This document shows, piece by piece, positions 2,816-5,329 of a stretch of 5,335 bases of DNA; positions within the stretch are counted from its first letter, which is position 1, and the number at the start of each line of letters is the position of its first letter. The translations under genes were made by a program, and so were the position numbers. The stretch comes from Candidatus Aerophobota bacterium (GTDB taxonomy: Bacteria; Aerophobota; Aerophobia; Aerophobales; B3-G15): the NCBI GenBank assembly GCA_014859225.1, contig JACUUP010000099.1, forward strand, positions 1 to 5,335. The letters run 5' to 3'. The notes under the pieces are model-generated. The model did no database searches and was not told the origin of the DNA. It saw only the letters and a program-made list of their open reading frames with translations.

Positions 2816-2831
2816 GTAAAAATCTTAGGGG

Positions 2832-2996
2832 TTATTCAACCTTAATTTCTTTCCTCTTTGCTTTAGCTTCCTCAGCCTTAGGTAAAGTAACCTCCAGAAT
2901 ACCATTTTCATACTTTGCCTTAGCTGCATCAGCCTTTACTTTCAGAGGTAAAGGAATTGTTCTTTGCCATGTGCTGTACGCTCTTTCACAGATCAC
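2832..2996 (-). pseudogene. Hsp20/alpha-crystallin small heat-shock protein, C-terminal remnant
   Basis: The minus strand encodes, up to the TAA at 2834-2832, the last ~54 residues of an Hsp20. ERAYSTWQRTIPLP matches the family's E-R-x-Y-G-S-F-x-R-x-I-x-L-P strand region. It is followed by KADAAKAKYENGILEVTLPK, the A-x-Y-x-N-G-[IV]-L-x-[IV]-x-[LIV]-P-K signature. The C-terminal I-K-V of KEIKVE fits the I-x-I/V motif used for oligomer assembly. Bacterial Hsp20 proteins are usually about 140-150 residues, so the N-terminal arm and the first half of the alpha-crystallin domain are missing. Upstream in this frame comes a TGA at 3008-3006. The only plausible start is GTG at 2996-2994, which overlaps the GT4 stop (GTGA) and could allow re-initiation. 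The lysine- and alanine-rich tail is intact and no internal stop is present, so the break looks recent or the fragment is still translated. A functional chaperone is unlikely without the missing strands. Confidence 0.85.
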
Positions 2997-4243
2997 TTTG
3001 CGTCTTCATCTACCAATTTTTTTACATAATTTTCATATATTGCTTCCCAACTATAGTGCGCTGTCACCCTCTTAAACATGGAAAAGGTGGGTATGCCATT
3101 TAGATAATTTAAAATCTTTGTAGCTATCTGCGGTATATCCTCTGTTAAGTTCACTCTTAAAGCAAAATCTCCCGTCACCTCGGGAAAAGGCTCAATATCG
3201 GTGCATATAATTGGAATTTTTTTTGCACCTGCTTCAAGTAAAGGTATTCCAAATCCTTCCTGGGTAGAAGTTATAAACAGTGCATCGCAAATAGAATAAA
3301 AATCTTTTATTTCTTTGAAATCCAGTTTTAAATCATAGCTCTCTTTAAAATCAGAGATAAATATCACTTCTTCCTGTACCTCAAGGTCCCTGCAAAGTTT
3401 ATGCAAATAGTCAAAATAGTTAATTGTCCCCGGATTATGCGGGTCAGGGGGGGAGGTAATGATAAATTTACATTTTTTACCTCTTTTTTTTATTTCTTTT
3501 ATTACTTTTATTCCCAGCTCGTAATTTTTCCGCTTTAAGATTCTTGAAGGAAAAAACATTACAATATCACTCGTGAAAAGTTCCTTATCCTGGGCAAAAT
3601 TCCAAACTGAATCAGAGATGTCAAGATAAGATTTTAAGTCTATTCCCGCCGGAACCACCTGAATAAGCTCAGAATCTATGGAAAAAAGTGCTGCCAGCTC
3701 TCTTTGACGGAGTTCAGAGATGGTTATATATTCTGCCTGCGCAATAAACTCAGATAGAATACTCCAGGGATATTTGTCTTTTTGCGCCATATCTTTTTGA
3801 TATGCAGGATTCATGAGAGCAGAATCATGACACCAGAGATAAAATGTAACTCTGGATGATAGTTTCTCCATGAGCTGTTTTAAGGCGCAGGTGAGCGGAA
3901 GGTTAAAGTGCATGGTCATAATGTTGTGGATTACACATACATCTACATCCCTTAGTTCATCTTCCAATTTTAAACAAATTTCCTCTTTTAGCTGATAGAA
4001 CTTTTTAGAGACTTCCCCCTCTTTTAATTTTTTATCCAGAGTTTCTTCAAAAGAGGCAAGAGAGCGCAGCTCGGGTATTATTTTTACTTCAATTCCGTTT
4101 TCTGATTCTCCCACCCCACTTATTACCTTTACCCTGTAGCCATTTTTAACTAAAATCCTTGCATGAGCCTGGATAACAATTTCCACTCCACCAATGACAG
4201 GCGGGTAGGTGTAGTGGACTATAGCTATTTTTCTATTTTCCAT
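2993..4243 (-). CDS. GT4-family glycosyltransferase, candidate mannosylglucosyl-3-phosphoglycerate synthase (MggA-like)
   Basis: A 416-residue GT-B fold, retaining glycosyltransferase, full length for GT4, with no signal peptide or membrane segment, hence cytosolic. The N-terminal acceptor half has PPVIGGVE (14-21), the G-G-x-E loop common in GT4, then VIHNIM (104-109) and WCHDSALMNPAY (137-148). The C-terminal nucleotide-sugar half has FFPSRILKRKN (230-240), with Arg234 and Lys238 where GT4 enzymes bind the donor phosphates, SPPDPHNPG (264-272), and the E-x7-E motif EGFGIPLLE with Glu329 and Glu337. The ATG lies 3 bases after the gpgS stop with no clear ribosome site, so translation is probably coupled to gpgS. 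Because gpgS makes glucosyl-3-phosphoglycerate, the likely acceptor is that product, with GDP-mannose as donor, as for MggA of Petrotoga mobilis, whose gene is functionally connected with gpgS. Donor and acceptor are inferred from context only; another glucosylglycerate-extending enzyme (MggS-like) is possible. The C-terminus looks complete although the gene abuts a truncated hsp20. Confidence 0.9.
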   Translation of the reverse strand: MENRKIAIVHYTYPPVIGGVEIVIQAHARILVKNGYRVKVISGVGESENGIEVKIIPELRSLASFEETLDKKLKEGEVSKKFYQLKEEICLKLEDELRDVDVCVIHNIMTMHFNLPLTCALKQLMEKLSSRVTFYLWCHDSALMNPAYQKDMAQKDKYPWSILSEFIAQAEYITISELRQRELAALFSIDSELIQVVPAGIDLKSYLDISDSVWNFAQDKELFTSDIVMFFPSRILKRKNYELGIKVIKEIKKRGKKCKFIITSPPDPHNPGTINYFDYLHKLCRDLEVQEEVIFISDFKESYDLKLDFKEIKDFYSICDALFITSTQEGFGIPLLEAGAKKIPIICTDIEPFPEVTGDFALRVNLTEDIPQIATKILNYLNGIPTFSMFKRVTAHYSWEAIYENYVKKLVDEDAK

Positions 4244-4246
4244 TCT

Positions 4247-5254
4247 TCAGGTTACTTTGAATTCTTTCAGCAATCTTCTTTTTTCTCTATACTCTCCAAT
4301 CTCAATCATAGGTTTTCTCTCTATAAGGCTAAACTTTTCCCTGACCAGAAAAATTTCCTCACCCCTGGCGCGAACCAGGTTAAAGTAGTCTTCAATTTTT
4401 CTATTTATAGAGATGGTCTCTTGCTCCTGGAGTCGGGTAAAAAAAGTATGAAGAATAGCAAAGGACATTCTACCCAAATCATCAAGACTGCGATTCCTGT
4501 GTATTCTTCTATCAAGGTCCACCTGAGCTAAAGAAAAAAGACCACATTGCTCATATATATCAATTAAAAGACCTGTTTCTACGCCGTAGCCAACCCTGAA
4601 GGGTATTTTTTCCAGGATTTCTCTTCTTCCGGCATATTCGCCCGAGAGAGGCTGAAAAAAACCACTCAATTCTGGATAAAAATTAGACAAAAGCGGGCGA
4701 ACCAGTATCTCGGTAACTCTTCCTCCGCCTGTGCGTCTCAGTTTATTCGTACCCATCTTTATGGGGCGCTCATAAAATGCTTTTACATATACAATCTCGT
4801 CAAACTCAAGTAGAGGTCCTAAAATACCATAGGCAAATTTGGGATGAATATTTTTAATATCTGCATCTATCCATAAAATTATATCCCCCTCCAGAAGATA
4901 AAGGCTATTCCAGAGATTCTCACCTTTTCCTTTTAGATAACCGTGTCGGGGAAGACACTCTGAGGATAAATAAACTTTTGCCCCTGCTTCCCGGGCAACC
5001 TTTACAGTATTATCCGTTGACCCACTATCTATGATTGCTATCTCATCTATAAGAGGATAATTTGTCTGAAGCTCATCCTTCATTACTTTAACTTCTTTTT
5101 CTATAGTTTCTTCCTCGTTTAAAGTGGGAAAACCAAGACTTATTTTTAGCCCCTTTTTTTCTTTTAAGTCCACCAGCCTTTTTATATCGGAAAATCGGCT
5201 GTGGTGAAAAGTGTTTGTTTTAATCCAGCGGTCCAGATTCTCCTGCCAACTCAA
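4247..5254 (-). CDS. gpgS: Glucosyl-3-phosphoglycerate synthase (GT81)
   Basis: Transfers glucose from an NDP-glucose to 3-phosphoglycerate, the first step towards glucosylglycerate-type solutes. Cytosolic, GT-A fold, metal dependent. Numbering from the TTG start (335 residues): TFHHSRF (15-21) is the family's N-terminal signature; PTLNEEE (43-49) and IDSGSTD (75-81) bind the nucleotide; GKGE (109-112) carries the conserved Lys110; DAD (130-132) is the metal-binding DxD; GGGRVTE (176-182) is the 3-phosphoglycerate loop; GYGVETGLLID (222-232) carries the conserved Glu226; HRNR (252-255) matches the His-x-Asn-Arg of mycobacterial GpgS. All key residues are present. I chose TTG at 5254-5252 because AGGAGGTGA (5268-5260) is a perfect ribosome site 8 bases away. 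An in-frame ATG at 5287-5285 would add 11 residues, but its AAGGGAGG touches it with no spacing and it lies almost at the predicted transcript start. First gene of the operon with the GT4 gene. No phosphatase partner is visible. Confidence 0.93.
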   Translation of the reverse strand: MSWQENLDRWIKTNTFHHSRFSDIKRLVDLKEKKGLKISLGFPTLNEEETIEKEVKVMKDELQTNYPLIDEIAIIDSGSTDNTVKVAREAGAKVYLSSECLPRHGYLKGKGENLWNSLYLLEGDIILWIDADIKNIHPKFAYGILGPLLEFDEIVYVKAFYERPIKMGTNKLRRTGGGRVTEILVRPLLSNFYPELSGFFQPLSGEYAGRREILEKIPFRVGYGVETGLLIDIYEQCGLFSLAQVDLDRRIHRNRSLDDLGRMSFAILHTFFTRLQEQETISINRKIEDYFNLVRARGEEIFLVREKFSLIERKPMIEIGEYREKRRLLKEFKVT

Positions 5255-5259
5255 TATAA

Positions 5260-5268
5260 TCACCTCCT
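5260..5268 (-). promoter_or_regulatory. Ribosome binding site that sets the gpgS TTG start
   Basis: Reads AGGAGGTGA on the minus strand, fully complementary to the 16S 3' end, with 8 bases between GGAGG and TTG. It lies inside the longer in-frame ORF that begins at 5287, so an automated caller preferring ATG would place the start upstream of this site. Confidence 0.8.
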
Positions 5269-5277
5269 CCCCGTCAT
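5260..5277 (-). other. Possible 5-codon leader ORF overlapping the gpgS ribosome site
   Basis: ATG at 5277-5275 opens the peptide MTGRR and stops at TGA 5262-5260, 5 bases before the gpgS TTG. A second Shine-Dalgarno-like AAGGGAGG (5295-5288) ends 10 bases before this ATG. Its two AGG arginine codons are themselves the gpgS Shine-Dalgarno core. It could be chance, since any ATG in a purine-rich leader would look similar. Confidence 0.2.
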
Positions 5278-5300
5278 ATTTTCTCATCCTCCCTTGTTTA

Positions 5301-5329
5301 ATTATAGGAAAATGCTAAACTAAAGTCAA
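5301..5329 (-). promoter_or_regulatory. Promoter of the gpgS-GT4 operon
   Basis: Minus strand: TTGACT (5329-5324), a 17-base spacer, then TATAAT (5306-5301). The hexamers and spacing are identical to the tRNA-Pro promoter. Transcription should start near 5294, giving a leader of about 40 bases. No operator-like palindrome is visible in the short upstream stretch, which is cut by the window edge. Confidence 0.8.

Follow-up and report, generated by a model that had tools for sequence, protein, structure and literature searches.

What compound is made by a gene pair in which glucosyl-3-phosphoglycerate synthase (gpgS) is followed immediately by a glycosyltransferase of family GT4 is the question raised by a short contig from a Candidatus Aerophobota bacterium (GCA_014859225.1, JACUUP010000099.1). 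The window analysed is the entire contig of 5,335 bases (G000:C231), one of 273 in a genome of 1.8 Mb that is 91% complete. On the minus strand the GT4 open reading frame (ORF; 2993-4243, 416 amino acids) lies downstream of the gpgS ORF (4247-5287, 346 amino acids from ATG), and exactly 3 bases separate the gpgS stop codon (4249-4247) from the GT4 ATG (4243), the spacing given in an initial annotation of this DNA. Pathways of a related kind are already known, a 2010 Petrotoga paper having reportedly described two routes in Petrotoga and Thermotoga, one in which MggA acts after GpgS and one in which MggS uses glucosylglycerate as its substrate. Mannosylglucosylglycerate itself was known first from two Petrotoga species and afterwards from Rhodopirellula baltica, with no other reported source (PMC3694870). 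It is probable that the window pair is likewise a sugar-glycerate biosynthetic operon, in which the GT4 would add a second hexose to glucosyl-3-phosphoglycerate or to glucosylglycerate.

The family evidence for the GpgS step is strong. The predicted protein passes the curated model NF010496 (369.2 bits, cut-off 262) and matches solved GT81 structures with 206-224 bits. The donor, metal and acceptor residues of Mycobacterium tuberculosis GpgS are K114, D134, D136, V186, T187, L209, Y229, E232, H258 and M269 (PMC2581804). By alignment their equivalents in the window are K121, D141, D143, V191, T192, L214, Y234, E237, H263 and M274 (window ORF numbering); all functional residues checked against the M. 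tuberculosis enzyme are conserved, and the model score and this alignment together uphold the annotation of a GpgS with all its catalytic residues. In the M. tuberculosis enzyme the side chain of Ser81 occupies the space that the amino group of guanine would need (PMC2581804). Ser88 of the window GpgS (in DSGS) aligns with it, which makes UDP-glucose the likely donor rather than a GDP-linked sugar. The top PDB sequence match, with 224 bits, is the GT81 mannosyl-3-phosphoglycerate synthase of Rubrobacter xylanophilus (3f1y), but this enzyme has Ala (in DADS) where the window protein has Ser88. A tblastn search of plasmids with GpgS yielded distant matches only, at no more than 41% identity. GpgS is also found as part of larger proteins. 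At Chloroflexota loci including L126:5515-7353 and L141:8756-10582 it forms the C-terminal region in proteins of ~600-617 amino acids, the N-terminal 280 residues of which are, by eye only, universal stress protein-like, and at L117:6438-8642 (G036) a protein of 734 amino acids combines GpgS with a second, weakly GpgS-like glycosyltransferase region.

The second enzyme has the PF00534 (71 bits) and PF13439 (33.5 bits) domains, and was correctly annotated as a full-length GT4 with an intact E-x7-E motif: the motif reads E329-GFGIPLL-E337 and both glutamates are invariant in 15 homologues. Its structure model has a GT-B fold with a pLDDT of 90 and gives Z scores of up to 19.8 against GT4 structures, the rmsd of 16-18 in these matches arising because the two domains are placed differently. 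Searches with the model returned BshA, MshA, GlgM, sucrose-phosphate synthase, PimB' and a methylmannose transferase about equally, and singled out no donor or acceptor. The curated model for MggS, NF041101, which is passed by the Thermotoga maritima rings, gives 66.4 bits against a cut-off of 640; the window protein fails it, yet it is still the best NCBIfam match. The alignment covers residues 5-350 and is the sole leading match to reach the N-terminal, acceptor-side half, and when the N-terminal 200 residues are taken alone MggS is the only credible match. The sugar-nucleotide half is matched about equally by many GT4 families and structures. A scan of viral contigs with the GT4 profile found generic GT4 matches only (best E 9e-12) and no link to phages.

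Phylogenetic analysis was based on a careful tree of 63 proteins in which Rv3032 was not included. The comparison set comprised the Petrotoga gpgS and the gene next to it, a Thermotogales MggS (702 bits) and 16 MggS-like proteins. MggA, MggS and the MggS-like proteins grouped together (99/98) to the exclusion of the window GT4, and MggS with the MggS-like proteins formed a clade (100/99) that also lacked it. The window GT4 joined MggA, MggS and the MggS-like proteins against the other sampled GT4s (100/100); it did not fall among those others, so that the clustering with cell-wall, lipopolysaccharide or mycobacterial-type transferases that would have refuted the initial annotation was not seen with the GT4s sampled. 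Profile comparison placed the window-type GT4s closer to the MggS-like proteins (E 7e-27) than to MggA (E 2e-11). The sequence comparisons thus argue that the GT4 is neither MggA nor MggS but a separate branch related to both, and the idea in the initial annotation that it is of the MggA/MggS type was not sustained, given its place outside their clade and its 66 bits against 640. A single clade of all 31 window-type GT4s appeared in a quick tree (87), but the careful tree disagrees by two changes and that grouping was not used.

Within the order to which the window belongs, a close GpgS occurs in 14 of 17 genomes and a close GT4 in exactly the same 14, both being absent from the other three. 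The two genes share a cluster in 13 of the 14 and are on different contigs in G007. An identical 14/17 pattern would arise by chance once in 680 if the genomes were independent, which genomes of one order are not. The pairing of gpgS and GT4 exceeds chance. A separate MggS-like gene is present in seven relatives and was not found in the window genome (G000) or in G001. In G002, a member of the same family, a protein of 451 amino acids that is weakly oligosaccharide amylase/trehalase-like lies between gpgS and GT4 (L114:1213-2568).

In seven of the relatives a phosphatase gene lies beside gpgS. A histidine phosphatase of 184-208 amino acids lies between gpgS and GT4 in G003, G006, G009, G010, G013 and G016 and after gpgS in G007, and this GpgP-like enzyme is the sole PF00300 protein found in each of those seven genomes. 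Beyond the order, a phosphatase of this type is likewise found with gpgS and GT4 in G034, L119 (Nitrospirota) and L126, L136 and L141 (Chloroflexota); its presence in the ancestral cluster and subsequent loss from the lineage of the window are therefore probable. No PF00300 histidine phosphatase was found in G000, in G001 and G002 of the same family, or in G005, G011, G012 or G014, and there is no phosphatase gene within the window. The annotation had reasoned that dephosphorylation must be encoded elsewhere unless the GT4 acts on something else. The absence beside the pair stands, the clustered enzyme of the relatives having apparently been lost, and for the unlinked enzyme there is a candidate: a HAD-IIB hydrolase is common to G000 (L327:3608-4387, contig C121), G001, G002 and G005 (L328, L329, L330), and the G000 protein passes the HAD-IIB model (64 bits, cut-off 42). 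The phosphatase-bearing relatives gave no comparable match, the HAD protein of G006 being unrelated and sucrose-phosphatase-like. Replacement of the histidine phosphatase by the HAD-IIB enzyme in four genomes is possible and is a lead only, and the pattern may reflect a single event since the GT4s of G000, G001 and G005 form one branch. A HAD protein of G011 was considered as a shared replacement and rejected, as it occurs in G011 alone. At L331:887-3095 in G006 a protein of 460 amino acids is followed by the sucrose-phosphate-phosphatase-like HAD (TIGR01485, 108 bits, cut-off 184), which suggests sucrose synthesis in that genome. Genes for GDP-mannose had also been proposed as a check, and a ManC-like gene was found in the window genome (G000:C125). 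Against the guanylyltransferase portion of TIGR01479, a model of the bifunctional enzyme with a cut-off of 373, it reaches 283 bits, a level comparable to the 295 of Petrotoga mobilis. A supply of GDP-mannose thus appears to be present, and mannose as the donor is compatible with the gene content, not proven by it.

A scan of named genomes extended the distribution of the GT4 to 24 loci with relatives of 29-41% identity, all in metagenome-assembled genomes (MAGs), from Nitrospirota, Chloroflexota, Calditrichota, Myxococcota, Thermodesulfobacteriota, Acidobacteriota, Verrucomicrobiota and Fidelibacterota. The closest are Nitrospirota MAGs (37-41% identity), and at L119 the gene row is a GT-A protein of 444 amino acids, GpgS, phosphatase and GT4. 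At the Chloroflexota loci L126 and L141 the row is an MggS-like protein, an MGH1-like glycosidase, the GT4, GpgS (the C-terminal part of a protein of ~610 amino acids) and the phosphatase. The glycosidase matches MGH1-like_GH (PF22422, 281 bits) and, below its cut-off of 550, glucosylglycerate hydrolase (NF047898, 104 bits), and these matches independently support the view that a glycerate glycoside is both produced and turned over by the cluster. At the Calditrichota, Myxococcota, Thermodesulfobacteriota and Acidobacteriota loci an MggS-like gene adjoins the GT4 with no GpgS beside it; GpgS is elsewhere in the genome in two Calditrichota-type genomes (G089, G143). Because the GT4 and an MggS-like glycosyltransferase are neighbours in many carriers, joined in Chloroflexota by GpgS, it may tentatively be suggested, though we consider it unlikely, that the GT4 branch makes a previously undescribed sugar-glycerate, and that the two transferases could act in series to give a trisaccharide glycerate solute with a dedicated turnover glycosidase in several phyla. 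A further GT-A family of ~400-440 amino acids (MGS_GT, mannosylglycerate-synthase-like, with a weak GpgS match) has two copies in G000, at L333:1249-2544 (C216) and L334:1992-3293 (C30). Members also lie next to gpgS in Nitrospirota (L119:350-1684) and directly before the GT4 in Verrucomicrobiota (L121:6790-7980). This family could provide a non-phosphorylating route to glycosylglycerate.

In the proposed pathway GpgS would join glucose, most likely from UDP-glucose, to 3-phosphoglycerate to give glucosyl-3-phosphoglycerate. The GT4 would then add a second hexose, mannose or glucose, either to this compound or to glucosylglycerate, yielding a disaccharide glycerate similar in type to mannosylglucosylglycerate. 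A separate phosphatase would remove the phosphate, namely the clustered histidine type in relatives and an unlinked enzyme, for which the HAD-IIB hydrolase is the candidate, in the lineage of the window, and the product would act as a protective solute. From neighbourhood and phylogeny we infer the reaction of the GT4; its donor, whether its step precedes or follows dephosphorylation, and a solute function for the product are likewise inferred. The pathway first proposed for this locus is consequently retained as a GpgS-initiated sugar-glycerate route with a second transfer, which neighbourhood and phylogeny support well, and is not supported as regards an MggA or MggS. Several observations weigh against even this form of it. 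GpgS went undetected in about half of the distant genomes carrying the GT4, and the acceptor therefore need not always come from GpgS. The genome of the window, at 91% completeness, has no PF00300 phosphatase, and its HAD-IIB protein reaches 32 bits against a cut-off of 165 for the mannosyl-3-phosphoglycerate phosphatase (MPGP) model. The careful tree contains long branches, so that the exact branching order is uncertain, and the literature searched contained no assay of a protein from the GT4 branch.

A narrower case of the proposed pathway is that the operon is the Petrotoga pathway itself, the GT4 acting as MggA by transferring mannose from GDP-mannose to glucosyl-3-phosphoglycerate, with dephosphorylation to mannosylglucosylglycerate. 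G128, which we take to be P. mobilis, has a gene for a protein of 505 amino acids after gpgS that is presumably MggA, an assignment made from gene order. The layouts are alike, gpgS being followed directly by a same-strand GT4-like gene with no adjoining phosphatase, the genes overlapping by 4 bases in P. mobilis and lying 3 bases apart in the window. The two GpgS proteins are 57% identical, the GT4 is related to both MggA and MggS, and the window genome has its ManC-like gene. However, the window GT4 has 416 rather than 505 amino acids, its profile comparison with MggA gave just E 2e-11, and it is a separate branch outside the MggA and MggS clade (99/98) and not an orthologue of MggA. The phosphatase between gpgS and GT4 in relatives suggests, moreover, that glucosylglycerate itself may be the acceptor, and seven relatives have a distinct MggS-like enzyme. 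Identity with the Petrotoga route is thus doubtful, though it deserves consideration.

A glucosyl transfer would lead in another direction, the GT4 adding glucose to glucosylglycerate to form diglucosylglycerate, which would serve either as a solute or to prime a longer glucan, as happens in mycobacterial methylglucose lipopolysaccharide synthesis. UDP-glucose is required by GpgS in any case. The mycobacterial GpgP, Rv2419c, is a histidine phosphatase, so that the relatives with gpgS and a histidine phosphatase carry the same kinds of enzyme, although the window genome lacks the phosphatase. The pathway to methylglucose lipopolysaccharide begins with GpgS and GpgP (PMC4555173). Rv1208, the mycobacterial GpgS, shares the GT81 family and the functional residues of the window GpgS, but the second glycosyltransferase of the window was not recognised as an Rv3032 or GlgM type. 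Its match to glgA_Coryne is weak (36.7 bits, cut-off 302) and confined to the C-terminal half, unlike that to MggS, and visual inspection of the listed neighbourhoods revealed no methyltransferase or acyltransferase. Diglucosylglycerate as the product is therefore regarded as rather unlikely. Finally, envelope functions are common among GT4 enzymes, the sugar-nucleotide half of this one matches many families about equally, and half of the distant carriers are without a detected GpgS; the GT4 might then belong to an envelope or exopolysaccharide pathway and stand beside gpgS by coincidence. This is improbable given the occurrence of both genes in the same 14 of 17 genomes, the clusters with gpgS and phosphatase in Nitrospirota and Chloroflexota, the pairing of the GT4 with an MggS-like glycosyltransferase and an MGH1-like glycosidase, and its union in the tree with MggA and MggS.

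The literature searched contained no description of the GT4 branch, nor of gpgS clusters in uncultured phyla. The clusters present in uncultured Nitrospirota, Chloroflexota and the order of the window itself suggest that these bacteria may synthesise related di- or oligosaccharide glycerates. Because the GT4 branch has no curated family model, annotation pipelines would label its members merely as group 1 glycosyltransferases, and characterising one of them would name the branch across all the phyla that carry it.

As to the start of the operon, gpgS more likely begins at a TTG at 5254 (4247-5254, minus strand, 335 amino acids) than at the ATG at 5287 to which it can be extended, because a strong ribosome-binding-like sequence, GGAGGAGGTGA, lies just upstream at 5270-5260 and this codon is also the start in the closest relative. 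The annotation had described the operon as promoter-driven. A sigma-70-like site, TTGACT-17-TATAAT, does lie ahead of gpgS on the minus strand (5329-5301) with 11 of 12 consensus matches, and it ranks among the three best of 17 sites in the window; with ~13 sites of at least 9/12 expected by chance it is a good pattern and no proof. Downstream, a 57-codon 3' fragment of hsp20 (2829-3005, minus strand; PF00011, profile positions 48-101 of 102) without a start of its own abuts the end of the GT4 with a slight overlap. A DUF763 gene comes after the GT4 in G001, G005 and G006, with an intact hsp20 behind it in G006, and for this reason the fragment is probably a deletion scar. A terminator-like hairpin, identified as a pattern only (2784-2815; 14-pair stem, T-rich tail), separates the operon from a convergent lon-like protease gene on the plus strand (369-2783) with AAA_32, LonB LID and Lon_C domain matches. 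The remainder of the window holds, on the minus strand, the start of a gene reading MKTVKGTKTEKALLASFAG (1-59), a putative rubrerythrin by look alone, and a tRNA-Pro(tgg) at 165-243.

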